Below are positions 15,462-63,637 of a DNA stretch of 64,000 nt, in pieces (the stretch's first letter is position 1; every line of letters starts with the position of its first letter). The notes beneath the pieces are model-generated. The model was not told the DNA's origin. It did not search any database and saw only the letters and a list, made by a program, of their open reading frames with translations. The position numbers and the translations under genes are program-made. The stretch is from an uncultured Granulosicoccaceae bacterium (GTDB taxonomy: Bacteria > Pseudomonadota > Gammaproteobacteria > Granulosicoccales > Granulosicoccaceae). The stretch covers positions 1 to 64,000 of the forward strand of contig CALHOU010000041.1 of assembly GCA_938035945.1 (NCBI GenBank). Direction: 5' to 3'.

Positions 15462-16112
15462 TCAATCTAACGGCATCCCCGCTCGGGCGGCAAAATAGAA
15501 TGCTTCAGTTCTGTTGTGAACGCCAAGAATTTTAAAGATAGTCGCCAGATGAGCCTTAACCGTATTTTGAGAAATATTCATCTCTGCGGAAATGCCTTTG
15601 TTCGAAGAGCCACGAGCTATGTGCTTTAACACTTCTTTTTGCCGGTCGGACAAGGATGAAAGCACTGATATATCGGATGCTGAATGATGGTGCGATCGTG
15701 TTTGTGTGGTTTTGTTAGTTAGCTCTGGTGATAAATACACTTTGCCATCGCTGACGCTGTCAATCGCACGTTGTAACTCCTGATAAGAAGACGTTTTACT
15801 CACGTAGCCTGAAGCACCTAAACTAATTGCTTGATTAGCCAGATGTAAATCTAGTTCATCTGAAATAGTGATAATGGGCGTAATAGATGCAGATTTTTTT
15901 ATTCCTCGCAGTGAATCAAGCCCCATTGCGTCGCGCAGTTTTATATCGAGCAGAATAAGATCAAACTGTTGTTTTGAAAGTAAATTAAGTGCATTGCTAA
16001 GCTCATCGGCTTCTCCGCACTTGCTAAGAATGTTTGATTTTTGAAGTAGTAACTTTACGCCATCACGAAATAGTGTGTGATCGGCAACGAGCAAAATGTT
16101 CATGGTGTGCAT
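15462..16112 (-). CDS. NarL/FixJ-type response regulator (REC-LuxR HTH)
   Basis: 216 residues: an N-terminal receiver domain (about 1-125) and a C-terminal LuxR/GerE helix-turn-helix (about 148-212; LSDRQKEVLKHIARGSSNKGISAEMNISQNTVKAHLATIFKILG). The phosphoacceptor is Asp56 (LILLDIKLRD), with Ser84 and Lys106 as the switch residues. The usual Asp-Asp acid pair is Ala10-Asp11, so one metal-coordinating acid is missing. The ribosome site AAGG supports the first ATG. No cognate kinase is adjacent; the hybrid kinases at 22.7-24.8 and 58.9-60.7 kb are candidate partners by class only. Confidence 0.9.
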   Translation of the reverse strand: MHTMNILLVADHTLFRDGVKLLLQKSNILSKCGEADELSNALNLLSKQQFDLILLDIKLRDAMGLDSLRGIKKSASITPIITISDELDLHLANQAISLGASGYVSKTSSYQELQRAIDSVSDGKVYLSPELTNKTTQTRSHHHSASDISVLSSLSDRQKEVLKHIARGSSNKGISAEMNISQNTVKAHLATIFKILGVHNRTEAFYFAARAGMPLD

Positions 16113-16903: not shown

Positions 16904-17827
16904 ATGCCTGAATTAGCGCCCGCGCCTTTGACTGCACAGCCGGTTATTGAGCTCGACAATGTTTGTAAGCGGTATGGCTCGCTAGAAGTGCTGACTGGGC
17001 TTACGTTGCAAGTAAATCGTGGTGAGGTTTATGGCTTTCTGGGACGCAACGGTGCAGGAAAGTCTACGGCCATCAGAATGATGATGGGAATCACCAAAGT
17101 GAGCAGTGGCTCTATCCATCTATTCGGCAACTCCATAGCGCACAATTTTGTTGGAGCGCGTCAGCGAATTGGCTACGTAGCTCAGGAGCAGCATTTCTAT
17201 CCGTGGATGACGCCTAAGCAGCTCGCAAAATTTGTCCGCGGTTTTTATCCAAAATGGAATCAACAGCGTTATGAAAGTTTGGTGACTTTATTTGAGTTGC
17301 CGATGACGCGAAAAATAGGCAATTTCTCGGGCGGTATGAAAGCGAAAATGGCACTGACCATGGCGTTAGCCACTCAGCCTGAATGTTTGATTCTCGATGA
17401 GCCTACGGCTGGCATGGATCCGGTCGCAAGACGAGAGTTTCTTGATTTGGTCAGTGAGGAGGCTCGGCGGGTTGATGCCACCATTTTGTTTTCAACTCAC
17501 TTAATCGACGACATAGAAGCTATAGCCGACCGCATTGGCATTGTTGAATCGGGAAAAACGGTTTACGAAGGTGGGTTGAAACCGTTATCAGACAGTATTG
17601 CCACTTATTCAATTGTAGAGGAGCTTTACACACCTGGCAGTGTGCCGGGTGCGTTTGCCAACGGTGCCGATCATGTTCTGCAAAGCCATGCGCGACATGG
17701 CCGTCATCATATAGTTCTGCAATTTCCCTACGGTGCTCCGCGCTCACCGATACTCGACTATGGTTGGCAAGAAGACGCCATGACGCTTGAAGATGTGTTT
17801 ATTGCCGTGGTGGCCAAGTCGGGTTAA
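16904..17827 (+). CDS. ABC-2 type transporter ATP-binding protein
   Basis: 307 residues, CcmA-type exporter ATPase. It has Walker A GRNGAGKST, signature FSGGMKAKMAL, Walker B CLILDEPTAGMDP and switch His in FSTHLIDD, then a C-terminal extension of about 90 residues. It heads a four-gene cluster: 6 nt to the first permease-peptidase gene, an ATGA overlap to the second, and 9 nt to an MscS channel gene. It should energise an ABC-2 transporter built from the two permeases. The cargo is unknown. Confidence 0.93.
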   Translation: MPELAPAPLTAQPVIELDNVCKRYGSLEVLTGLTLQVNRGEVYGFLGRNGAGKSTAIRMMMGITKVSSGSIHLFGNSIAHNFVGARQRIGYVAQEQHFYPWMTPKQLAKFVRGFYPKWNQQRYESLVTLFELPMTRKIGNFSGGMKAKMALTMALATQPECLILDEPTAGMDPVARREFLDLVSEEARRVDATILFSTHLIDDIEAIADRIGIVESGKTVYEGGLKPLSDSIATYSIVEELYTPGSVPGAFANGADHVLQSHARHGRHHIVLQFPYGAPRSPILDYGWQEDAMTLEDVFIAVVAKSG

Positions 17828-17833
17828 ATATAC

Positions 17834-19744
17834 ATGGGCTGGTTTAATCTACTTGTAAAAGATGTTCGAGAGCATGGTTTTGCCATGTTGCTATTGGGCG
17901 TGGGTTTTATTCTGGTGGTATTTCTCGCACTTGAGCAGCAACTCTCAGGTGCGTTCAGTATGAGCGGGTTTGAGGTTGTTCGCTTTTCGTTGATTACAAA
18001 CGTCCCGTTAATAGCATTTATTTTAGGCAATAGACTCATAGTAAAAGAGTACATTGGTGGAACGCGAAAATTTGTCGAAGCGCTGCCAATAAAGCCGTAC
18101 ACACCCTTGCTGGTCAAGTATATATTAGGCCTTTTTTATATCATCACCTTATGCGTGCTGGTAGTGATGATCGTTGCCGGTACTGCCAGTGCTGCTGAAG
18201 ATATCGACAAAACCTATTTGCAATTACTGATAATAAAAACAGCTGCGATTGGTTTGCTCTATTGGAGTGTTGTGTTCTTTGTCAGTTTGACGGGTCGTAT
18301 TCGTCTTGTGTTGTATGTGCTCATGGGCTTAGCCCTTATGTACTTTATCAACGTGCCGAGTATTGATGAAACTCGATTTGCACCGCTGGCGCTGATGGAT
18401 CGTCAGCTGTTCGTGTTCGAACGAGAGATATTTCCATGGGGTGAGCTGATACAAACCGCTCTGATCGCGCTGGGTTTTGTTGTAGCCGGGTTTGTGCTTG
18501 CTTTACTCAATGAAGGTTCGATTGCTGAACAGTTAGGCAAGCCGATATCCCGCAGAGACATGGTTGCGTTCGCACTGCTAGGCCTTGGCTGTATGACGGT
18601 CTACTCGACGTTGCAAAAGAAGTGGGAAACACCGTTCTACGAACTCTCAGGTGCGCAAGTTATACGGGTTAGTGAGCCAGTAATAGCTGTGTCCTATGTT
18701 GAGGATCAGTATCTCACTCAGGCCCAACGCGTTGTTGATTCCTTGCAGCAAGTGATAAGTGATTTCAAAGCCGATGTTGGTATAGATCAATTACCTCAAG
18801 TGCAAGTGGTTTTAAATACCGATCTTGAGAAAACTGAAATTGAGCCTGAATTAACCGACGGCGTTTTGGTCACAGCAAATTTTATACAGTACGACGATTT
18901 TGAGTACGACATGCTGAGCTCAATTGCTATGCACCATTTATTGTTGAGCTTAACCAATGGACGTTGGGACTACGAAACTCGGCATTGGTTACTTGACGGG
19001 TTGGCGCGATGGTGGGCCGATGGTGGGGAGAATGCGCGCGACAGTGTGCATAACGATGAATTATTTGCATTGGCCCTGGTTGCATTGCGTCGTATTAAGC
19101 TCAGTGATAATCCGTTACACACTTGGCAAACAATCACCGATAACTATGGGTTTGAGGCCGCTAGCGCAATGTCCTATAGCGCGCTACTTTACCTTGAAGA
19201 GCAAAAAGGCACGGACATGATCGTGCAATTGGCGGCTGATTATATAAATGAAGATATTGGCTCATCTGTCGTTGAATCGGTGCAAAGCAAATTTTTATCA
19301 GATGCAGCGCGATTTGAAAATATTACTGGCATCGAATTCACTGCGTTCACGGCTCAATGGTTTGAATGGCTTAAAGCAAAAGAGTCCGAGCCGGTCGTCG
19401 CTGAACTTTTGGATGCAGTTCCGCGCATAGAAGGTGAAATTAAGAGTGTGGTGGATGAACGAGGCGTGCACCGTCTTGAGGCAAGCTTCAGCAAACGTGA
19501 GGGCTACATCGACGGAGTAGAAGGCACTTGTGTGCTCAGACATCAGTTGGCATCTGCCTACGATCGTGAAACGATGATCTACACCATCGAACGCGACCGG
19601 CAGCCATGTAAAACCAACGGTGTTGCGCATACCATCGAGTCTCCATACGCCGCAGGTGACCGGGTCTATGGCTTGTTAGAGTTTGAATCCGAGCGTTTTC
19701 ATCGGCCTATACCCTTGTGGGTTGGCAGGATACATGTCAAATGA
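17834..19744 (+). CDS. ABC-2 permease fused to a degenerate peptidase-like extracytoplasmic domain
   Basis: 636 residues. The N-terminal half (about 1-262) holds seven or so hydrophobic segments with the ABC-2 coupling motif NRLIVKEYIGGTRKFVEALPI typical of such permeases. Residues about 265-636 form a large hydrophilic domain that should face the periplasm. Its IAMHHLLLSL (His367, His368) aligns in position with the HExxH motif of the paralogous next gene, but the Glu and second His are replaced, and LLDGLARWW (Asp388) takes the place of the downstream Glu region. So this looks like a catalytically inactive gluzincin-like domain. It overlaps the next gene by ATGA. Related fusions are known as ABC permease/M1-type aminopeptidases. 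Confidence 0.8.
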   Translation: MGWFNLLVKDVREHGFAMLLLGVGFILVVFLALEQQLSGAFSMSGFEVVRFSLITNVPLIAFILGNRLIVKEYIGGTRKFVEALPIKPYTPLLVKYILGLFYIITLCVLVVMIVAGTASAAEDIDKTYLQLLIIKTAAIGLLYWSVVFFVSLTGRIRLVLYVLMGLALMYFINVPSIDETRFAPLALMDRQLFVFEREIFPWGELIQTALIALGFVVAGFVLALLNEGSIAEQLGKPISRRDMVAFALLGLGCMTVYSTLQKKWETPFYELSGAQVIRVSEPVIAVSYVEDQYLTQAQRVVDSLQQVISDFKADVGIDQLPQVQVVLNTDLEKTEIEPELTDGVLVTANFIQYDDFEYDMLSSIAMHHLLLSLTNGRWDYETRHWLLDGLARWWADGGENARDSVHNDELFALALVALRRIKLSDNPLHTWQTITDNYGFEAASAMSYSALLYLEEQKGTDMIVQLAADYINEDIGSSVVESVQSKFLSDAARFENITGIEFTAFTAQWFEWLKAKESEPVVAELLDAVPRIEGEIKSVVDERGVHRLEASFSKREGYIDGVEGTCVLRHQLASAYDRETMIYTIERDRQPCKTNGVAHTIESPYAAGDRVYGLLEFESERFHRPIPLWVGRIHVK

Positions 19745-21633
19745 TTAGCTTAATTCGAAAAGAACTTAAGCAGCTAATGCCATTCGCCCTGTTATGGTTT
19801 TGCCTGGTGGTGATGTTCTATGGCGCAGAGCTAGCGACCGTTCGTATCGATGAGCAAAGTTATCTTGGGTGGTGTGATCAGTACTGCGATGTTGGGACCA
19901 ACGTTGATATAGCACTGTTCACGATTTTGCTTTACATGATCGCCGCTTATAGTTTATTTCCGCGCGAATTTGATGACTACACGGTTGATTTTCTGCGCAG
20001 CTTGCCCCTATCACGTACGAGTATATTTATATCGAAAGTTTTGGCGGCCTGGATTTTGTTGTGTTTTTTGTTGGTGCTCGATCGTATCATTCAGGCAGCG
20101 TTCCTGTTAATGAATACGCAAACCATCACGGGTAAACATTATTGGAATATCGACTTGCAGTTTTTACTTCGCGATAGCCTGTTTGCCTTTGTAATTGTTG
20201 CGCACGGTGTGTTTTTGTCATGGTTTCGCACCGTCGGTCTGATTTTATATTGTATCTATCTCGTATCGCTGATTTGGCTGGAGCAGGCTGCTGGTGTATC
20301 GGGTATTTATAATATCTTCAGTTTTTTCAATAACGAATACGATGGCACTAACTTATTATTGGATTGGACAACCATCGGTTTTCATATAACGGTTGCACTT
20401 ATCTTACTTCTGATCAGCTACATGCTTTGGACCCGCACCGATTCCAAGCCCAGTGCACCAAGGCGTGGAAAAGTAACCAAGCTATTGTTATCGATTGGCT
20501 TATCTATAGTGTCATTTTTGTTTGTCGCAGGTTACATGGTGAGTATGACTCAGCGTAGCGTGATTGAGTCTGTCGACTCTGGCATTCGGAAACTGCAGAC
20601 TGAGCACTTCCATTTTTCATACAGAGATGTCAATGAAAGTGCGATGCGAAAACTGGAACCATTTGTCGAACCTGACTATCAAGCTTTAGTGGCTTTGCTG
20701 GGCGCACAAACTCAACCGATAATTCATGCCGATATGACATCTGACAGTGAGCACGCTCTGGGATTGGCTAGCTGGAAGAAAATACGCATGGTCCTGGAAT
20801 CCGAGGACGAGGTAGATCCGCTATATCGACGGGTGCTAAGCCATGAAACTGCGCACGTATTCCAAGCAGTGGAATCAGACCGGATGTTAGCAAAGGCGGG
20901 CGGCAGTGTTGGCTTCTTCATTGAAGGCATGGCTCAGTACACGTCGTTCTCGATTGTTCCCGATCCTGAATCTCGACAGTCGAACTGGCTGATTTCGTCG
21001 GTCGCATGGGACCGGCACAATATCAAATTCGAAGAAATGGTCAATCGTTCGGTGTTTGAATCCTTATACGATCCTGAATTGTTATATGGTATTGGCGACA
21101 TCTGGGTTGATGCAATGGCACAAGCTTGTGGTGAAGAATCCATCGGTAATTTTTTACGCGCAGTCAAGCGCAAAGAGGCTGCGCCAAATCTTTCTGGTCC
21201 AACCTATTGGAGATATCATCTTCAACACATTGGTTGTGAATTAGAAGAGGTGAACAACCTATGGCGAAAACTAATGCAAGAAGCGATAGAGCAGCAGTCG
21301 GCAGGCGCGTTTCCGTATTTTGATAATGTCGTCGTTACTCGATCAGAAGCGACCGACTTAATTACGATAAGTGCCGAACTCAGGGCCGATGAGTCGGGTA
21401 TATTGCCGCAGTACTACTACTTGCGCGTACAAAGCGAAGCCAAACTTGCCAACACGGTTAGCCCGGTTTTAAACGGAAAATTAGTTACGGAGGGAGCCAG
21501 GGCCACGGTGGAATTCGCAGTATTGCCACGGTTAATCGATGGCAAACGTTTTCGGTATCAACTCGGTTACACCCCAGTACCTGATTCCAGAACCTATTTT
21601 GATAAGTGGCGATCTGGCGCCGTTCCGGACTGA
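19741..21633 (+). CDS. ABC-2 permease fused to a gluzincin-type (HExxH) peptidase domain
   Basis: 630 residues from the ATG at 19741, which overlaps the previous stop (ATGA); a GTG 24 nt upstream is a less likely start. About six membrane segments occupy residues 1-268, including the FPREFDDYTVDFLRSLPLSR coupling region. The hydrophilic remainder contains SHETAH (His368-Glu369-x-x-His372) and FFIEGMAQY (Glu395), a zinc-metallopeptidase HExxH-x22-E arrangement resembling the peptidase-MA/gluzincin clan. The domain should lie in the periplasm. Together with the upstream ATPase and degenerate paralogue it suggests a heterodimeric ABC-2 transporter carrying one active and one inactive protease domain. 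The substrate is unknown. Confidence 0.82.
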   Translation: MISLIRKELKQLMPFALLWFCLVVMFYGAELATVRIDEQSYLGWCDQYCDVGTNVDIALFTILLYMIAAYSLFPREFDDYTVDFLRSLPLSRTSIFISKVLAAWILLCFLLVLDRIIQAAFLLMNTQTITGKHYWNIDLQFLLRDSLFAFVIVAHGVFLSWFRTVGLILYCIYLVSLIWLEQAAGVSGIYNIFSFFNNEYDGTNLLLDWTTIGFHITVALILLLISYMLWTRTDSKPSAPRRGKVTKLLLSIGLSIVSFLFVAGYMVSMTQRSVIESVDSGIRKLQTEHFHFSYRDVNESAMRKLEPFVEPDYQALVALLGAQTQPIIHADMTSDSEHALGLASWKKIRMVLESEDEVDPLYRRVLSHETAHVFQAVESDRMLAKAGGSVGFFIEGMAQYTSFSIVPDPESRQSNWLISSVAWDRHNIKFEEMVNRSVFESLYDPELLYGIGDIWVDAMAQACGEESIGNFLRAVKRKEAAPNLSGPTYWRYHLQHIGCELEEVNNLWRKLMQEAIEQQSAGAFPYFDNVVVTRSEATDLITISAELRADESGILPQYYYLRVQSEAKLANTVSPVLNGKLVTEGARATVEFAVLPRLIDGKRFRYQLGYTPVPDSRTYFDKWRSGAVPD

Positions 21634-21642
21634 GAGTAATTC

Positions 21643-22728
21643 ATGTTAAGCCAACAAATTAATACGTATCTGTTACAAAGCAGTGGAGTGTTGTACGGAT
21701 TACTCATCATCAACTTATTGTTGATTGTATTTGCCCCTTATTTGGTTCGCTTGTTTTCAAACGATGAAGTCGCAGACGGTGCGCGTGAATTTCGTATTAA
21801 CGTCATCCGTGGATTGAACGTTTTAATTATTGGCTTACTCGGGCATTTTCGATTCTACAGTGAGGGTCAGTCGGGTCAGGGCATTGGGATAAAAATACTC
21901 TCTATTCTCGTGATCATATACCTAAGTTATCTAAGTGTTCACTTGATAGGGCGGTTCGTGCGTGTGCGGTTTGGGCGTACCGTGCAAAATGTTGGAGCGA
22001 GCAATCGGATTGCTGATACCTATGCGTCACGCGCGTTAACCATATTTATTAGCGTGTTCATTGGCATCATGGCTTTGATATCGATAATTCGTGTTGCAGG
22101 GTTTAGTAGCTTGCTCGAAGCGGGTGGCGTGATCGGTTTTGTGGGTGTTTTTCTAGCCTTAACCCAAGGTGCTTGGGCGCCAGACATCATTAGTGGATTG
22201 GTTATCTTGAACAGCAAGATGTTCAAAGAGCGTGATGTCATTAAAATTTCGGATGGTAATCAAGAAATGCTGGCGATTGTTTATCGTACCTTGGCGTTTC
22301 ATACCGAGCTACTTAACTTGGTCGACAATCATCGCATCATGATTCGTAACTCGAAAATACGAGATCAAACCGTGCATAATTTGTCTCGTTTTGCATCCGC
22401 GCGCGGCTTACGTGAAACCTTGTTGTTTAAGATTGGATATGATGTATCTAGCAATGATGTCAAATCCATGTTTGAGTCGGCGTTTCAGGCTGCGGTGATC
22501 GACCCGGAAATTCCCTTGGAAGAACAATACCCGCTAGAGATTCGATTGAAGGACACTGGTGATCACGCGATAGAGTGGTCGGTTCACTACTACACTAAGG
22601 ATGAATTTTCGCTGATTAAAACTAGGCAATTGTTTAGAGAGCGTATTTTAGAAGCGAGCGTGGATGCAGGGATATCGTTGTCTACCCCGTTTTCACATCA
22701 AAGCGTTCCAGCTATGGTAGTCACCTAA
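21643..22728 (+). CDS. MscS-family mechanosensitive channel
   Basis: 361 residues. About four or five N-terminal membrane segments precede the MscS pore-lining helix and beta domain: GGVIGFVGVFLALTQGAWAPDIISGLVIL, RDVIKISDGNQEMLAIVYRTLAFHTELLNLVDNHRIMIRNSKI, then the C-terminal alpha/beta domain with FKIGYDVSSNDVKSMFESAF. It starts 9 nt after the permease-peptidase gene, so it is probably part of that operon. MscS channels release solutes under membrane tension; here a link with envelope stress or the exporter is an inference. The stop overlaps the stop of the converging histidine kinase gene (CTAA, 22725-22728). Confidence 0.85.
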   Translation: MLSQQINTYLLQSSGVLYGLLIINLLLIVFAPYLVRLFSNDEVADGAREFRINVIRGLNVLIIGLLGHFRFYSEGQSGQGIGIKILSILVIIYLSYLSVHLIGRFVRVRFGRTVQNVGASNRIADTYASRALTIFISVFIGIMALISIIRVAGFSSLLEAGGVIGFVGVFLALTQGAWAPDIISGLVILNSKMFKERDVIKISDGNQEMLAIVYRTLAFHTELLNLVDNHRIMIRNSKIRDQTVHNLSRFASARGLRETLLFKIGYDVSSNDVKSMFESAFQAAVIDPEIPLEEQYPLEIRLKDTGDHAIEWSVHYYTKDEFSLIKTRQLFRERILEASVDAGISLSTPFSHQSVPAMVVT

Positions 22729-24812
22729 CCAAAATTAGATTCTGACAAGCTGCATTCTTTGATTGCGCTGTTGATCGAGCTGAGTAAAACGTTAGCGTTA
22801 ACTGGTTTGTTTAGTACTCGGTAGGTCGATTGACTGGCTTTTCTAATCAATGCATTGTTTGTGTTGCCGGTGACAATGATCGATGGTAAGTCTTCACCAG
22901 CGGCTTCACATATCTTGGCGATGGCTACATCACCTGTCACGCCATCGGCGAGTTGGTAGTCAACAACTAATAGTTCAGGCAGCTCATCCAATTCTTCAAT
23001 AATTTCTAAGGCCTCGGGAATATTGCTGGCGGGATAAGCATCGCAGTTCATGCCAGAAAGCATTTGTTGCATTGCTTCCAATACGAGTGGGTTGTCTTCG
23101 ACAATCATTATTCTGAGCGCTTCCAATGTTTCGGGCTTTGCATTTTTTGCCTTTTCTGACTTGCTGTCAGTAGCTTCGCCTAAAGGCACGGAAAGTGTGA
23201 AGCGCGTTCCACCATCGAGTTTGGAATCAAGTGTGATATCCAAGTCAAGTAGATCAGTTAAGCGTTTAACGATCGAAAGCCCTAAGCCCATACCAAAATT
23301 TGGTTGGGAATCTTGATTGTCTAATTGATGGTATTCATCAAAAATGGCCATGTACTGTTCTTCAGGAATACCTGGTCCAGAGTCTTTTACATGTATGAGT
23401 AGAGAGTCTGACTCGACCTCAGTAATAAGGTTAACGCTGCCATAGTTTGTGTATTTTACCGCATTGCTAACCAAGTTCTTTAGCACGCGTGTTAGTAGCA
23501 GACTGTCTGTGTGCACAACTGCGTTCGTGTTTGCAACGTGCAATGTCAAAGACTTATCCTTAGCAACTGTACCAAATTCATCTTCTATGGATTGTAGAAT
23601 GTGCGCGATACTAAAGTGTGTTTTGCTGGCTTGAACAGCATCAGCATCTAGCTTTGAAATATCCAGGATACTATTGAGAAGTTCGTTTAAATCGGCAGAT
23701 GATTGCTTCATCTTCGCAAGCGTTGAGAGCTGCTCCGGATTAACAATTTGTTGTTGCAAGCTTTCGATGAAGAGCCCGATGGCGTGCAGGGGTTGCCGCA
23801 AATCGTGACTCGCTGTAGCGATAAAATTATTCTTTCGCTTGAATGCTGACTGTACTTGAGATTTAAGTGCAACAGCTTTGTTTCGTTCATCGTCAAGGCC
23901 TTTGATAATAGGCGAAACCTCAATGTTCCGTCGGCTGGCCAATTCTGACTTAGTACCACCGAGAATTTTCGACTCATGAACTTGGGTTATGCACACGAGT
24001 AAGCCGATAACGTTGCCTTGGTGATTTTTTATCGGTATTTTGGCCACGTGTTCACGCACTTGCTCCAACGCGTTTTCATGAATAACCAAGTGTTCCGTGT
24101 GGGAAGGTTCTCCAGACGCTATGACTTCATCGTCAAGCTTCCAATAACCTTTCCAGTTTTTATCTTCATTACCTAGTACCAGTTCCTCAGGCGTACCGAT
24201 TTCCAAATCGTTTTTACCGATTATTTCTTTCGCTGTTTTTTTGTGCGATTTTAGGAAGCGATCAGAAACCATCAAGAAGCGATGCTCAAGATCCTTAAAC
24301 ACCATCCAATCGGTACTGTTGCGTACAAACGACGTCAAAATTTCATAAGCATTGCCTTTCACGATGTCGTCACTTGGCATTAGTGGCACTGGCTTGATAG
24401 AAGCCAGCGCATTGAATCGTTTACACGCTGCAATACGTAATGGCAGCGTCGAGCTGTCAAGATCGGATTCGCTAAGCAGTTCCATTCGACTGGTTGTGTC
24501 TTGAGGTGAGACAGGTAAATACGAATGTTCGTCAATCAAAGCAAAAATGATCGCGGGTCTATGGTTAACGGTTTCTTCCGGGCAGTCGATGACGGTGCCG
24601 CGACAGTCAATCAAGCCAGCATCGAAGCTATCCATGTCTAAATCGGGCGAATATTGCGTGAGATGAAAATGCTTGGTTAACTTGTAGTAAAGCGTGCTGG
24701 GAAGTTCATTGCACACGATCAACGAGTAGCTTTCACCGCTTTGCAAGGGCCTAACCGATTTCGAGCGCGGCAATGCCGTGTTCAAAGAATATGTGCATTG
24801 GCTTAAGGGCAT
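22725..24812 (-). CDS. Hybrid histidine kinase (PAS-HisKA-HATPase-REC)
   Basis: 695 residues without obvious membrane segments, so probably cytoplasmic. An uncharacterised N-terminal region (1-150) is followed by a PAS domain (about 160-275; NSTDWMVFKDLEHRFLMVSDRFL), a short coiled region, HisKA with ATASHDLRQPLHA (His336), HATPase (NLVSNAVKYT, DSGPGIP, GMGLGLSIVKRL) and a C-terminal receiver with Asp618 (LLVVDYQLADG). The HDLRQPLHA box marks the kinase subgroup shared with the hybrid kinase at 58.9-60.7 kb. No separate histidine phosphotransfer domain is present. A partner could be the NarL-type regulator at 15.5 kb, but this is unproven. Confidence 0.92.
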   Translation of the reverse strand: MPLSQCTYSLNTALPRSKSVRPLQSGESYSLIVCNELPSTLYYKLTKHFHLTQYSPDLDMDSFDAGLIDCRGTVIDCPEETVNHRPAIIFALIDEHSYLPVSPQDTTSRMELLSESDLDSSTLPLRIAACKRFNALASIKPVPLMPSDDIVKGNAYEILTSFVRNSTDWMVFKDLEHRFLMVSDRFLKSHKKTAKEIIGKNDLEIGTPEELVLGNEDKNWKGYWKLDDEVIASGEPSHTEHLVIHENALEQVREHVAKIPIKNHQGNVIGLLVCITQVHESKILGGTKSELASRRNIEVSPIIKGLDDERNKAVALKSQVQSAFKRKNNFIATASHDLRQPLHAIGLFIESLQQQIVNPEQLSTLAKMKQSSADLNELLNSILDISKLDADAVQASKTHFSIAHILQSIEDEFGTVAKDKSLTLHVANTNAVVHTDSLLLTRVLKNLVSNAVKYTNYGSVNLITEVESDSLLIHVKDSGPGIPEEQYMAIFDEYHQLDNQDSQPNFGMGLGLSIVKRLTDLLDLDITLDSKLDGGTRFTLSVPLGEATDSKSEKAKNAKPETLEALRIMIVEDNPLVLEAMQQMLSGMNCDAYPASNIPEALEIIEELDELPELLVVDYQLADGVTGDVAIAKICEAAGEDLPSIIVTGNTNNALIRKASQSTYRVLNKPVNANVLLSSINSAIKECSLSESNFG

Positions 24813-58307: not shown

Positions 58308-58769
58308 CTATAACGGCTTTATGTAACGCATGAGCTCGCCGTCGTAGCCTTTGCGCTCATACAAAGCACGGGCTTTAGTGTTATTGGCAAATACATTGAG
58401 AGAAATTGTTTTAGCGCCGCGTGCCTTGGCTAAGCTGTCGGATGCGTCGATAAGGCTGGCGGCAATCCCAAACCCTTCCGCTGATTTGTCCAGGGCTAGT
58501 ACTTCCAGATGTGCGCTTGGCTCACCGCTAAGCATCTCTTTTCTATCCGATACTACAGCCACGCCAATAACTTTTTTATCAGACACGGCTATCCGAATAT
58601 GCACATCGTCGCGTTTTCCTGCTGCCCATTCGCGGACCATATCGGCATCGCCTCCCCACAGGTGATCAGGGTTGCGGTTCTTTGGTATGTCGAAGTCGGC
58701 CAAGCGAGGGAGTAGGGCAAGGATGCCATTTAAATCGTTTGCCGTAGCCGTGTTGATTGTATAGTCCAT
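58308..58769 (-). CDS. GNAT-family N-acetyltransferase
   Basis: 153 residues with the GNAT core: IAVSDKKVIGVAVVSDR, SAHLEVLALDKSAEGFGIAASLIDASDSLAKARGAKTISLNVFANNTKARALYERKGYDGELMRYIKPL. The acetyl-CoA-binding region (EGFGIAASL) departs from the usual Q/RxxGxG/A. The substrate is unknown. It sits between the hybrid kinase and ntrB on the same strand. Confidence 0.88.
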   Translation of the reverse strand: MDYTINTATANDLNGILALLPRLADFDIPKNRNPDHLWGGDADMVREWAAGKRDDVHIRIAVSDKKVIGVAVVSDRKEMLSGEPSAHLEVLALDKSAEGFGIAASLIDASDSLAKARGAKTISLNVFANNTKARALYERKGYDGELMRYIKPL

Positions 58770-58872
58770 GGCTGCTCGAACCTAATCGTTGAAGTATGGC
58801 TCAGTGTGCCATGAGTGAATGCTAGAGAGTATGTGTAAATACGACGATCTGTATTTCCCCAGGGAGTAAACA

Positions 58873-60681
58873 CTAGGCGGAATCAGCAACAACCTCAGGT
58901 ACAGACAAAAACGATTCCACCACTTTAACCAGTTCTTCTGGTTGAACCGGTTTGTGCAGTAGCCTCATGCCGCTTTCTGAAGCGTCGCGAACACGTTCGG
59001 GGGATGTGTCGCCCGTAACGATAAGCGCTGGGATATCAAGGTTCAATTCTTCACGTACAAGTTCAACAGCTTCATCGCCGGTTTTGCCTTCGCGAAGACG
59101 ATAATCTGCGATGACTAAATCAGGAATAAGAGACTGTTCGACAACGACTTGTTGCGCAGCTTCTCCTGATTCAACGGCAACGATGGTGCAGTTAATCTTT
59201 TTCAGCAGGAGCTCCATACCATCGCGAACAGCTTGTTCATCGTCTATCACCAACACAAGAGCGCCATTTAAGTCGTTCGATTGTTCCACGGGCTCGATTG
59301 CATTAACCGGTATGTCACTAGCTTGCCCTGCAGGTACTTTAAGAAGAAATCGTGTGCCTTCACCGAATTGCGATCTCATAGTGAGCTCAATACCCAGTAA
59401 GTCTGACAAGCGTCTAACGATAGCAAGCCCCAAGCCAAGCCCCTTAGAACGATCGCGCTCTGGATTGTCGAGCTGATAGTACTCAGAGAAAATGGCTTCT
59501 TGTTCATCCAATGGAATACCGGGGCCCGTATCAAGCACTTCAATGTGCAGGTATTTTTTCTGTTTGGTGCAGGAGACGACGACTTTCCCTTGTTTGGTAT
59601 GCGTTATCGCATTGTCGATCAAGTTGCGTAGAATTCGCTCCAGCAAAATATAATCTGTAAACGCTATTTCATCCGAGTGTTCTATACGAAAATATATGTT
59701 GCTACTATCGGCGACTTCCTTGAATTCTTCGTGCAACATTAGAAAAAGCCTTGAGCAATAGAAATGTCCTGGGGAAGGTTCAACTACGCCTGCATCTAAG
59801 CGTGATAGGTCAAGCAAGCTATTGAGTAAGTCGCTTAAGGCTTCGGTGGATTGTTTAATCTTTCCCAGAATAATCGGTCCGTCAGGTACTTTTACTTTAT
59901 TTTCGAGCGCGCTTACGAAAAGTCCGAGTGCGTGCAGTGGTTGTCTTAAATCGTGACTTGCCGCCGCTAAAAAGCTGTCTTTCGCCTTTTGTTCGCGTTT
60001 GCCGCTACGTAGCTCTTCTACAACGGTCGCCAGTCGCGCTTTGGAATTTTGTGCGTCGTTATAGAGTCGTGTTGATCGATTATTTAGCCGGAACAATTGG
60101 GTGACTAGCGCTGAACCTGTGATCAGTAGTAACAGTGCTGAAACCCAAAAGTACTGATACAGCTTTTCCATACGCTCGGCAATGTGATCTCGAAAAACAT
60201 TGAAACTTGCAAACACATTGTTTCCCACAGTAAGGAGGTCTGTGGATAGATCTCTTACTCGATTTTCAATTGGTTGAAGTTGAGCGTTTGCAGGGGCTTG
60301 ATTAGAAGAGAATACTGGATCGTATTGTGATAAAAACAGTTTTACGTTTGCCGTAAAGTCATCAGCAATGTCGAGCCGTTGGCCTGAAGGCAAGTGAATA
60401 TCGAATACCTGGAAGGTACTCCAAATTAAATCAAATCGAAGTTTAAGTTGTGGCCAAATAGCTTGCTTTTGAGCCTGAGTTTCTGCGCTTAGGTAATCGT
60501 GTATCGAGTAGTTCAGACGATCAAACGAACGATCTGCTTGCAGAATATAATTGAACGCGCCTTCTTTGGTGTTTTGCAAGTGAAGGCGGGTATGGTTGAT
60601 GTTCACCATGACCATCAAAAGGCTCGCCGCACAAATTAACGCAGCAAACATTAGAACGTAAATAGATTTTCTACTGTCCAA
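58873..60681 (-). CDS. Membrane-bound hybrid histidine kinase (HDLRQPLHA type)
   Basis: 602 residues. Two membrane segments (about 8-27 and 177-196) flank a periplasmic sensor region of about 150 residues. The cytoplasmic part has HisKA with AAASHDLRQPLHA (His243), HATPase (NLIDNAITHTKQG, DTGPGIP, GLGLGLAIVRRL) and a receiver with Asp526 (LVIADYRLREG). It starts 1 nt after the stop of the SUOX-fold gene, so the two are co-expressed, and that periplasmic protein may act as the input partner. It is a paralogue of the soluble hybrid kinase at 22.7-24.8 kb. Confidence 0.93.
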   Translation of the reverse strand: MDSRKSIYVLMFAALICAASLLMVMVNINHTRLHLQNTKEGAFNYILQADRSFDRLNYSIHDYLSAETQAQKQAIWPQLKLRFDLIWSTFQVFDIHLPSGQRLDIADDFTANVKLFLSQYDPVFSSNQAPANAQLQPIENRVRDLSTDLLTVGNNVFASFNVFRDHIAERMEKLYQYFWVSALLLLITGSALVTQLFRLNNRSTRLYNDAQNSKARLATVVEELRSGKREQKAKDSFLAAASHDLRQPLHALGLFVSALENKVKVPDGPIILGKIKQSTEALSDLLNSLLDLSRLDAGVVEPSPGHFYCSRLFLMLHEEFKEVADSSNIYFRIEHSDEIAFTDYILLERILRNLIDNAITHTKQGKVVVSCTKQKKYLHIEVLDTGPGIPLDEQEAIFSEYYQLDNPERDRSKGLGLGLAIVRRLSDLLGIELTMRSQFGEGTRFLLKVPAGQASDIPVNAIEPVEQSNDLNGALVLVIDDEQAVRDGMELLLKKINCTIVAVESGEAAQQVVVEQSLIPDLVIADYRLREGKTGDEAVELVREELNLDIPALIVTGDTSPERVRDASESGMRLLHKPVQPEELVKVVESFLSVPEVVADSA

Positions 60682-60682
60682 G

Positions 60683-61258
60683 CTATTTGACCGTGATGTT
60701 GGTTAGCTGCCAGACACAGTTTGCTCGCGATTGTTCGGTGTTGAGTTCAGGGAATTCATCAAACGGATACATTATCCAAAGCGGCCCAAGCTCTCTTACG
60801 CTCATATATTTTCCGTTGCGTTTGTAAGCCACAATAATCGGGAACGATTCGAACGGTTCGTTGGATGCTTCCACACTGTATTCATCTAGGGCCTGGAATA
60901 GCAAATCGTTTGATTCTGCGCCGACGAAGTTCAGCAACACATCTAAACGCACACCGGTAAATTCCACTACACCTTCGGTCCAAGGTGTTTTGGTTCGTAT
61001 GGTTTCCGCAGGTAGTGTTTCTAGCATTTTAAGATCAAGAGCGACAGCGTTTATTTCCTGCCCATCTTCCTGCCTATCTATGTCTAACTTAGTATTGTGA
61101 TGACTTAGATTTCCGGAAATTTCTAGCAGCACTGGACCTGTGGGCTGTTTAAGTTCTGAGGCGTAAGTTGAGAACACCATCACACAGGAAATGATGAGTG
61201 CTTGAAGTAGGCGTATCAATGCCCTGAAGTGCACTCTCTGTGCTGTTTTGTTTTTCAT
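60683..61258 (-). CDS. Exported molybdopterin-oxidoreductase-fold (SUOX-like) protein
   Basis: 191 residues with a signal peptide (LLQALIISCVMVFSTYASE). The mature part resembles the fold of oxidoreductase molybdopterin-binding proteins: VLLEISGNLSHHN, LDLKMLETLPAETIRTKTPWTEGVVEFTGVRLDVLLNFVGAES, YSVEASNEPFESFPIIVAYKRNGKYMSVRELGPLWIMYPFDEFPEL. The only mature Cys is near the C-terminus (NCVWQL), so the Moco-ligating Cys of sulfite oxidases seems absent, pointing to a sensory rather than catalytic role. It is directly followed by the hybrid kinase gene. Confidence 0.8.
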   Translation of the reverse strand: MKNKTAQRVHFRALIRLLQALIISCVMVFSTYASELKQPTGPVLLEISGNLSHHNTKLDIDRQEDGQEINAVALDLKMLETLPAETIRTKTPWTEGVVEFTGVRLDVLLNFVGAESNDLLFQALDEYSVEASNEPFESFPIIVAYKRNGKYMSVRELGPLWIMYPFDEFPELNTEQSRANCVWQLTNITVK

Positions 61259-61350
61259 GTGTTAGCCGTTGCAGATGCACGCGTGTTTTAAGCTAACAAA
61301 GGATACCCGTATTTTTACGTGCGGGCGAGTGTTTCAGTATGAATTTGTGA

Positions 61351-62064
61351 CTATTGTGCGACTTTGTATTTCACGTGAAGGTGCGTGGCGTCAGACTCAA
61401 GATAAAGTCTGCCATTTTCATCAACCAACTTAACCTGCAAAACATGTGTTCCGCGTTCTGGTGGATCAATGCTCAACATTGGGCGTTGACCACTCGTGAT
61501 TAAACGATCATTCATCCACAACTGAGCGGTTAAGCCTGTTTTCTTCAGGGGCGTGGGATACGATTGCAGCTCTACCCAAATTTTACCGATTGGATCATTC
61601 AACGTTGTATTGTGAATCGGCGTTAGGATTTCAACCACTGTTACCGGTAAAAATATTCTGGGCTCTTCGGGCGCTTTGTATTCACTCTTTGGTGGGTTCT
61701 TAGGTGCTGGTGCAACGAGCACACCTGCATTGCGTCGAGGTACCACATCAATGGGCTCGCCGGTACTATCGAACTGAGGTGTGGCAGCGGCAGGCTCGCC
61801 GGGTTCATCAGGATTTTTTTGCCTAGCAATTTCAACCGCTTCTCTGTTCAGCGCTTGTGCGTCTTCTAAAGGTTGATCCGTGAATATGATGTTGCCGTTG
61901 GCATCGACGGTTTTGTAAATGGCTGCAGCCTGGGCTGCGTTGCTGATGATAAAACCGGACACGCACAAGGCGGCCGTCAGTGCTCGCAGACCACGACCGG
62001 CAGGGCGATCGAGTCGTCTAGCTTGGTTGTCAGATTCACGAAAATACATTCCCTCGAAATGCAT
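61351..62064 (-). CDS. DUF4124 domain-containing exported protein
   Basis: 237 residues. A signal-like segment (LRALTAALCVSGFIISNAAQAA) is followed by the DUF4124 motif AIYKTVDANGNIIFTDQPLEDAQ. The C-terminal part is a beta-rich domain of about 100 residues (VEILTPIHNTTLNDPIGKIWVELQSYP...). In many gammaproteobacteria a DUF4124 gene lies between glnA and ntrBC, as here. The ATG at 62049 is an alternative start with a nearer GAGG. The function is unknown. Confidence 0.85.
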   Translation of the reverse strand: MHFEGMYFRESDNQARRLDRPAGRGLRALTAALCVSGFIISNAAQAAAIYKTVDANGNIIFTDQPLEDAQALNREAVEIARQKNPDEPGEPAAATPQFDSTGEPIDVVPRRNAGVLVAPAPKNPPKSEYKAPEEPRIFLPVTVVEILTPIHNTTLNDPIGKIWVELQSYPTPLKKTGLTAQLWMNDRLITSGQRPMLSIDPPERGTHVLQVKLVDENGRLYLESDATHLHVKYKVAQ

Positions 62065-62169
62065 TTATCAGTCCATTCGTGCGACGTAAGTGATGTGAAA
62101 TGTCAAATTCGCATCAAAAATGAGAGACGCTTTCATTTTTTAATGTTTTTGGCGGAAATTCAGGCACAA

Positions 62170-62194
62170 AAAAGCCCCGATAAACGGGGCTTTT
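62170..62194 (-). terminator. Intrinsic terminator downstream of glnA
   Basis: AAAAGCCCCG (62170-62179) pairs with CGGGGCTTTT (62185-62194), a 10-bp stem with a 5-nt loop. On the minus strand it is followed by a TTTTTT run about 35 nt past the glnA stop, a good Rho-independent terminator. Confidence 0.9.
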
Positions 62195-62227
62195 AAGCAA
62201 TGTCGCCGCTTGGGCTACGCGAGATAT

Positions 62228-63637
62228 TTACACGCTGTAATACATATCAAACTCAACCGGGTGAGTCGACATACGCAGGCGCGTCACTTCTTCCATCTTC
62301 AACTCAATGTAGGCATCGATCATTTCGTCGGTGAATACACCACCGGCAGTTAAGAATGCCCGATCGTTGTCCAAACCTTCAAGTGCTTGATCAAGTGAGC
62401 TAGCAACCTTTGGAATCTGCGCTTCTTCTTCTGGCGGTAGATCATACAGATCTTTATCCATAGCATCCCCTGGGTGAATCTTGTTCTGAATGCCGTCAAG
62501 GCCTGCCATCATTAATGCAGAGAACGTTAGGTACGGGTTGCCGGTTGGGTCAGGAAAACGTACTTCAATACGACGTGCTTTTTGACTTGATACCCAAGGT
62601 ATGCGAACAGATGCAGAACGGTTACGAGCAGAGTATGCAAGCATAACCGGTGCTTCAAAACCTGGAACCAAACGCTTATAACTATTCGTTGATGCGTTAG
62701 CGAAGGCATTGATCGCGTGAGCGTGTTTAATAACACCACCAATGTAGTACAGAGCAGTTTCAGACAAACCACCATACTGATCACCGGCGAACATGTTTTC
62801 ACCGTTCTTGAATAATGATTGGTGGACGTGCATACCACTACCGTTATCGCCTACGATTGGCTTGGGCATGAATGTGGCTGTGCGACCGTAGTGATGTGCA
62901 ACGTTGTGTACGACGTATTTTAAAATCTGTACACCATCAGCACGCTTTACCAGTGTGTCGAATTTAGTGCCGATCTCGCACTGACCCGCAGTACCTACTT
63001 CGTGGTGATGGACTTCAGTTTCAACGCCCATTTCATCCATGACCATACACATGTTGGCACGAAGATCATTGAGTGAATCAACTGGTGGTACTGGAAAGTA
63101 ACCACCTTTAACACCAGGGCGGTGGCCCATGTTGCCGCCTTCCATTTTCTTACCCGTGTTCCAAGCCGCTTCCTCAGAATCGATTTGGTATCCCATGCCT
63201 TTCATGTCGGTGTTCCAGCGAACATCATCGAACACGAAAAATTCAGGTTCAGGGCCAAAGAAAGCTTGGTCAGCGATACCTGTTTGTTGCAGGTAGGCTT
63301 CAGCACGTTTAGCAATGGTGCGCGGGTCGCGCTCGTAGCCTTGCATGGTGTCAGGCTCAACGATGTCACAACGGATGTTCAAGGTTGTGGCTTCGGCGAA
63401 CGGGTCAAGCACAGCAGTGGATGTATCCGGCATCATAATCATGTCAGACGCGTTAATGCTCTTCCAACCTTCAATCGATGAGCCGTCGAACATGTTGCCA
63501 CCTTCAAACGTATCTTCATCAACCTGGCTGGCGGGCATGGAAAAGTGCATTTCCTTACCGCGTGGGTCGGTGAAACGGAAATCGACGAACTTTACTTCGT
63601 TTTCTTCTATCTTCTTTAAAACTTCACTTGCGGACAT
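62228..63637 (-). CDS. glnA: Glutamine synthetase, type I
   Basis: 469 residues, the standard length. Key landmarks: [95 protein letters not shown] and the adenylylation site DLYDLPPEE with Tyr398. It makes glutamine from glutamate, ammonia and ATP, and should be controlled by GlnE adenylylation and transcriptionally by NtrC. A ribosome site (GAGGAAAG) precedes the ATG. The NtrC boxes and sigma-54 promoter lie upstream. Confidence 0.98.

Follow-up and report, generated by a model that had tools for sequence, protein, structure and literature searches.

The 64,000-nucleotide (nt) stretch analyzed here (the window) comes from the genome of an uncultured member of the family Granulosicoccaceae, and the locus of interest occupies positions 16904 to 22728 of its + strand. 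It contains genes for an ABC ATPase (the nucleotide-binding subunit, NBD; 16904..17827, 307 amino acids), for two ABC-2 permeases, permease-1 (17834..19744, 636 amino acids) and permease-2 (19741..21633, 630 amino acids counted from the ATG of an ATGA overlap), and for an MscS-like channel (21643..22728, 361 amino acids). The spacings between them are, in order, 6 nt, −4 nt (the overlap) and 9 nt. An initial annotation of this DNA had described a four-gene operon with two permease-peptidase fusions; rereading the window sequence confirmed its open reading frames, coordinates and spacings, but the four genes do not form one unit, as the channel gene lies downstream in only 4 of 30 loci, that of the window included. 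Here we describe the first three genes as the core of a transporter in which permease-2 carries an apparently intact zinc-peptidase site and permease-1 a degenerate one.

Pfam matches agree with the annotated exporter-type ATPase (ABC_tran, 1.4e-28) and ABC-2 permeases, although ABC2_membrane_4 scores above its cut-off of 27 bits on permease-2 (32.5 bits) and below it on permease-1 (22 bits). Walker A, signature, Walker B and H-loop are complete in all 27 full-length ATPases of the family, and the best NCBIfam profile of the ATPase, PmtA, reaches 186.8 bits, far under its 350-bit cut-off. The roughly 370 additional C-terminal residues of each permease match no Pfam or NCBIfam model above that model's own cut-off. 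At an E-value of ≤1, Pfam listed no C39 match for the ATPase or either permease, and a sequence search of solved structures with both permeases and both ectodomain profiles returned nothing usable. Promoter-like sites (11, versus 11.0 in shuffled sequence) and terminator-like sites (4 versus 6.7) showed no excess.

A conserved three-gene core

Permease-2 was searched for in 95 genomes, 48 of them from the family of the window. It was found in 32, all within this family and all as open frames without stops; 16 of the 48 family genomes, some of them incomplete, gave no match. Thirty of the 32 genomes supplied loci with flanks, while G025 and G032, with matches at contig edges, were scored as transporter-present and left unaligned, and L063 was dropped as a duplicate of L053. 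In 28 of the 30 loci the ATPase, permease-1 and permease-2 genes are adjacent in this order; the exceptions are L038 and L053, where the contig starts less than 600 bases ahead of permease-2, and in L037 the ATPase itself is partial. The two exceptions, ending at contig edges, were excluded from permease-1 counts, for which n is 28. The genes around the core differ between clades and none recurs across clades, their identities being judged by eye from the starts of representative sequences. Relatives whose permease-2 is only 32 to 69% identical to the window's protein keep the open frames, the order of the genes and the HExxH-x22-E motif, which is more conservation than chance would give. The core unit is three genes, not four: a survey of homologous neighborhoods, proposed with the initial annotation, finds these three together and the channel mostly elsewhere.

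The arrangement was also found in few genomes. A pattern scan that covered 84,980 species with a single genome apiece, and that is sensitive to close relatives only, returned 20 loci; 19 of these carry Granulosicoccaceae or Granulosicoccus in their titles and the remaining one Chromatiales. The ectodomain profile (A3) matched 3 of 369 genomes of the class, all in the family and one being the window's own. With the full permease-2 profile (A1), 10 of 299 genomes of the phylum were matched, again including the window's own; the other nine matches were short and weak (E-values of 2.6e-5 to 6.9e-4), and one of them led to a fusion protein described below. A plasmid search with permease-2 gave no match. 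Within what was searched, which for the profiles was the phylum of the window, the split form with one intact and one degenerate site is confined to one family.

Two types of upstream neighbor were noted. L052 and L062 (2 of 30 loci) have, directly upstream of the ATPase, a gene for a membrane protein of 206 to 219 amino acids that looks rhomboid-protease-like by eye from the start of its sequence, and in L057 and L058 a gene that by eye resembles ffh lies 2 nt upstream of the ATPase.

Architecture and peptidase sites of the two permeases

Structure prediction and fold matches point to a NosY-like ABC-2 domain and a gluzincin (M1-like) domain in each permease, the ectodomain being identified from the predicted structure together with the motif. 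The predicted layouts run in parallel: in permease-1, an ABC-2 transmembrane (TM) domain (residues ~1-227), a seventh helix (TM7, 240-263), the gluzincin domain (~270-530) and an all-beta C-terminal domain (~531-636); in permease-2, the same elements at ~1-234, 244-279, ~280-520 and ~525-630. Among the matches listed for the TM domains, the folds are of ABC-2 types (NosY, ABCG, ABCA and CcmB).

The gluzincin domains are probably periplasmic. Seven TM helices can be read ahead of each ectodomain, which with an N-terminus starting inside puts the ectodomain in the periplasm. The AlphaFold2 (AF2) model of permease-2 draws TM4 and TM5 as a single 50-residue helix (135-184), which we counted as two because it is long enough, because permease-1 has separate helices there and because of the match to NosY. 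TM7 of the window's permease-1 has a hydropathy of 1.5, below the threshold of 1.6, which is exceeded in 24 of 28 permease-1 and 30 of 30 permease-2 proteins. Lysine and arginine are enriched in the inside loops (0.157 versus 0.049 outside in permease-2, and 0.126 versus 0.060 in permease-1), in loops picked under the assumed topology. Each ectodomain also has an invariant cysteine pair (30/30 in permease-2, 28/28 in permease-1). Helix count and charge bias agree with the initial annotation, which had predicted the extra domains to be outside the cytoplasm; in the models of the single permeases the gluzincin domain follows the seventh helix, which would place it in the periplasm.

The site of permease-2 (residues 368-395, HETAH to E395; 20842..20925 on the + strand, counted from the start at 19741) is strictly conserved. 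HExxH-x22-E plus YxxG is present in 30 of 30 proteins, with H368, E369, H372, E395, Y449 and G452 invariant, whereas only 32 of 363 reference columns of the ectodomain are invariant at all; if invariance were random and independent, the probability of seeing it at all of five given sites would be about 5e-6. Judged from this motif, permease-2 is apparently a zinc peptidase that would bind zinc and be catalytically active.

Permease-1 differs at the corresponding site (residues 367-389; 18932..19000 on the + strand, counted from the start at 17834). In an ungapped register, where hhalign would place a three-residue gap, all 28 proteins keep the first histidine, have serine, leucine, glutamine or threonine where the second belongs, and have an aspartate at the third-ligand position; the catalytic glutamate is replaced by glycine, histidine or glutamine in all 28. 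In the hhalign register a histidine takes the second place in 8 of 28, and the glutamate is absent in either register. None of the 28 has HExxH at the site, and the single match elsewhere is in L054. The retained histidine and aspartate would occupy ligand positions, going by the predicted helices. Permease-1 has invariant residues of its own (R377, E381, H384, W385, D388 and G389), and its conservation pattern marks it as a retained pseudopeptidase, in which H367, E381, H384 and D388 may make up a different site for a metal or another ligand. The two annotated permease-peptidase fusions are supported in that both permeases are predicted to carry a gluzincin domain, but an intact site is found only in permease-2 and neither domain is canonical M1.

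Profile alignment indicates that the two permeases are paralogs: they are collinear over 532 columns (hhalign probability 97%, E-value 5.6e-11), mainly via the TM part. The ectodomains alone show no significant similarity (probability 2.0%).

Relatives of the split system

Fusions of ABC permeases with M1-type peptidases without established function had been mentioned in the initial annotation, and such a family indeed exists. According to PMC3924187, TC 3.A.1.145 comprises ABC-2 permease/Peptidase M1 fusions of about 1,200 amino acids with 13 TM segments and one C-terminal M1 domain, for example Myxococcus xanthus Q1D520. The number has been in use since at least 2013, with function given there as unknown, and for this fusion type export of an amino acid, a derivative or a metabolic product was suggested (PMC3924187). 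This paper is the sole description that we found in literature searches aimed at the fusion, in which we did not come across a demonstrated function. A search on Granulosicoccus transporters and peptidases gave, among the matches listed, no mention of Granulosicoccus.

The protein recovered from the phylum scan (L087) is such a fusion, with 1,199 amino acids, two ABC-2 domains, a Pfam M1 domain (37.6 bits against a cut-off of 27.7) and an ATPase gene directly upstream. It matched 10 of 369 genomes of the class, its own and that of the window included. The fusion of the window's genome (L097) has 1,213 amino acids, is 33% identical over query residues 21-1183 and is preceded, by eye, by an ATPase gene, the pair lying on contig C6 at ~58337-62857 (L097 1483-6003). 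Among the 48 family genomes only that of the window has it, as though this lineage had gained it. Contamination was considered as its source and rejected: two family genomes contain matches to a neighboring gene at 89% identity, and the contig accordingly looks native, although a chimeric contig remains conceivable. Placing L087, L097 and their relatives under TC 3.A.1.145 is our own assignment, proposed from their sequences.

We built a fusion profile (A5) from 8 of the 10 matched genomes, excluding L090 and L093 (in-frame stop). The TM domain and TM7 of permease-2 align with the second TM domain (TMD2) of the fusion (A1 versus A5; probability 95%, E-value 3.9e-8, 238 columns), and this profile comparison makes permease-2 a homolog of the membrane part of the ABC-2/M1 fusions. 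Permease-1 matches the fusion weakly (probability 21%, 68 columns). The peptidase parts give no significant similarity to it (3.4% and 2.0%); HExxH, the glutamate and YxxG nevertheless align, with Y449 and G452 of permease-2 pairing with the fusion's HYRKG, though the alignment is statistically weak. Common to both systems are ABC-2 TM domains, one more TM helix, a gluzincin domain at the C-terminus and an ATPase gene directly upstream, which for the fusion was seen in the two loci inspected (L087 and L097). However, the fusion is a single chain of about 1,200 amino acids with two TM domains, one peptidase domain and HExxH-x19-E (8/8), whereas here two half-transporters of about 630 amino acids each have an ectodomain, with a spacing of x22 in permease-2 and no intact site in permease-1; these ectodomains are too short to hold the N-terminal beta domain of M1, and the peptidase domain of the fusion is scored as M1 by Pfam. 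The split system is distantly related to the fusion family and probably works alike, without being a member by architecture.

M1 aminopeptidases (IRAP, ERAP2, ColAP and LTA4H) are among the closest known systems, sharing the gluzincin catalytic fold predicted for the ectodomains. The M1 motif is HExxH-x18-E, the catalytic tyrosine lies in YxxG, and GxMEN is the element by which aminopeptidases handle a free N-terminus. Permease-2 has the tyrosine (Y449 with G452, 30/30) but a spacing of x22 in 30 of 30, and GxMEN was found in 0 of 30 permease-2, 0 of 28 permease-1 and 0 of 8 fusion proteins. Spacing and missing GxMEN rule out canonical M1 membership; since the fusions also lack GxMEN, its absence does not separate them from the split system.

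Other known systems are similar in part. NosY, of NosDFY, shares the type of ABC-2 TM domain but has no peptidase domain, and NosD is a separate periplasmic protein. Peptidase-containing ABC transporters (PCAT, such as SunT) likewise join a peptidase and an ABC transporter in one system, with an N-terminal C39 peptidase according to PMC11466899, as opposed to the predicted periplasmic, C-terminal gluzincin domain of a permease. The staphylococcal ABC-2-type transporter AyrABC (SAUSA300_0351-0353) has been tied to the release of envelope proteins, which depends on ATP, and to their alternative cleavage (PMC5013292, PMC5727409); its discoverers speculate that AyrBC extracts signal-peptide-anchored proteins, the released proteins being cut at another site (PMC5727409, PMC5013292), and the transporter is described without a protease-like domain (PMC5376350).

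The novelty of the locus lies in a split, doubled ABC-2/peptidase arrangement with one dead partner, as against a fusion type that is already known and functionally unexplained.

Proposed mechanism and alternatives

We tentatively favor, with somewhat less than even confidence, a reading in which an ATP-driven permease heterodimer takes a peptide out of the membrane, or presents it there, so that permease-2 can cleave it. The pair of permease-1 and permease-2 would sit in the inner membrane and be powered by two ATPase subunits. Each permease would be a NosY-like (type V, ABC-2) half-transporter whose further TM helix places the gluzincin and all-beta domains in the periplasm. Through motion of the paired TM domains, a peptide that is hydrophobic or embedded in the membrane, such as an anchored protein or what remains of a signal peptide, would be extracted or presented at the periplasmic face and cut there by permease-2. 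The role of the pseudopeptidase is probably to complete the substrate chamber, or to bind or position the substrate. This reading is supported by the core unit kept in otherwise changing neighborhoods, by fold, paralogy, site conservation and topology and by the homology to TMD2, and AyrBC may serve as a precedent, by analogy, for ABC-driven extraction. The earlier proposal of export or extraction coupled to periplasmic proteolysis is partly supported, by the three-gene unit, the predicted periplasmic fold and the permease-2 site, and loses its channel. A bolder version is doubtful: a Gram-negative machine for the release of envelope proteins or peptides, combining membrane extraction and endoproteolysis in one heterodimeric complex, in which the dead domain would receive or gate the substrate and its invariant H367, E381, H384 and D388 might bind a metal in another way. 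If the reading holds, ABC-driven membrane extraction and proteolysis would be joined in one machine, and the split pair makes such coupling testable, as catalysis, ATP hydrolysis and the pseudopeptidase domain can be removed separately.

Pairs of pseudoenzyme and active enzyme are common in regulation, and the system might instead transport nothing, ATP binding reshaping the paired periplasmic domains and thereby switching the permease-2 peptidase. FtsEX acts in this way on amidases via EnvC, and ATP-driven switching in the periplasm is documented for that case. We consider this rather unlikely here. The TM matches listed are to ABC-2 types, but that FtsX and MacB are not among the matches listed does not count against this reading. 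Also unlikely, and given still less weight, is the export of a small peptide or amino acid derivative that permease-2 trims in the periplasm, as a topological mirror of the C39 exporters. The exporter-type ATPase, with PmtA as its best if sub-cut-off profile, and the export suggested for the related fusion (PMC3924187) would fit; however, no neighbor recurs beside the core across clades, and the GxMEN element, with which aminopeptidases handle free N-termini, is missing in every permease-2.

Two further explanations appear very improbable. The lost site of permease-1 and the family genomes lacking a permease-2 match could suggest a decaying copy with peptidase domains as relics, but neither frameshift nor site loss occurs in the 30 aligned permease-2 proteins, whose zinc site and tyrosine are invariant, the ATPase motifs are complete, and permease-1 keeps its own set of invariant residues. 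The other is the four-gene machine of the initial annotation, with the channel as tension-responsive partner. The channel gene (Pfam MS_channel_2nd, the beta domain, 23 bits, just over the cut-off of 20.2) follows permease-2 after 9 nt in the window and is also downstream in the three closest relatives, yet there the gap widens to 39, 89 and 122 nt, and 26 loci have no channel downstream, including two with little sequence there (L046 with 456 bases and L038 with 1,726). In these three relatives the channel is 85 to 86% identical to that of the window, compared with 64 to 69% for permease-2. Searching the 48 family genomes at E ≤ 1e-20 found the channel in 33: both transporter and channel occur in 21 genomes, just the transporter in 11, just the channel in 12 and neither in 4 (Fisher p = 0.74 for an association), individual absences being uncertain in draft genomes. 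In G023, however, a genome assembled as a single contig, the transporter is present and no channel matched at this threshold. Where both occur, they share a contig in 4 genomes and lie on different contigs in 17. This distribution speaks strongly against the channel as a transporter partner, and it is probably only a neighbor.

Pfam matches further identify genes flanking the locus, for a hybrid histidine kinase (22725-24812) and a LuxR-type response regulator (15462-16112); kinase matches lie near the transporter locus in L034 to L036 as well, and response-regulator matches in L035 and L036.

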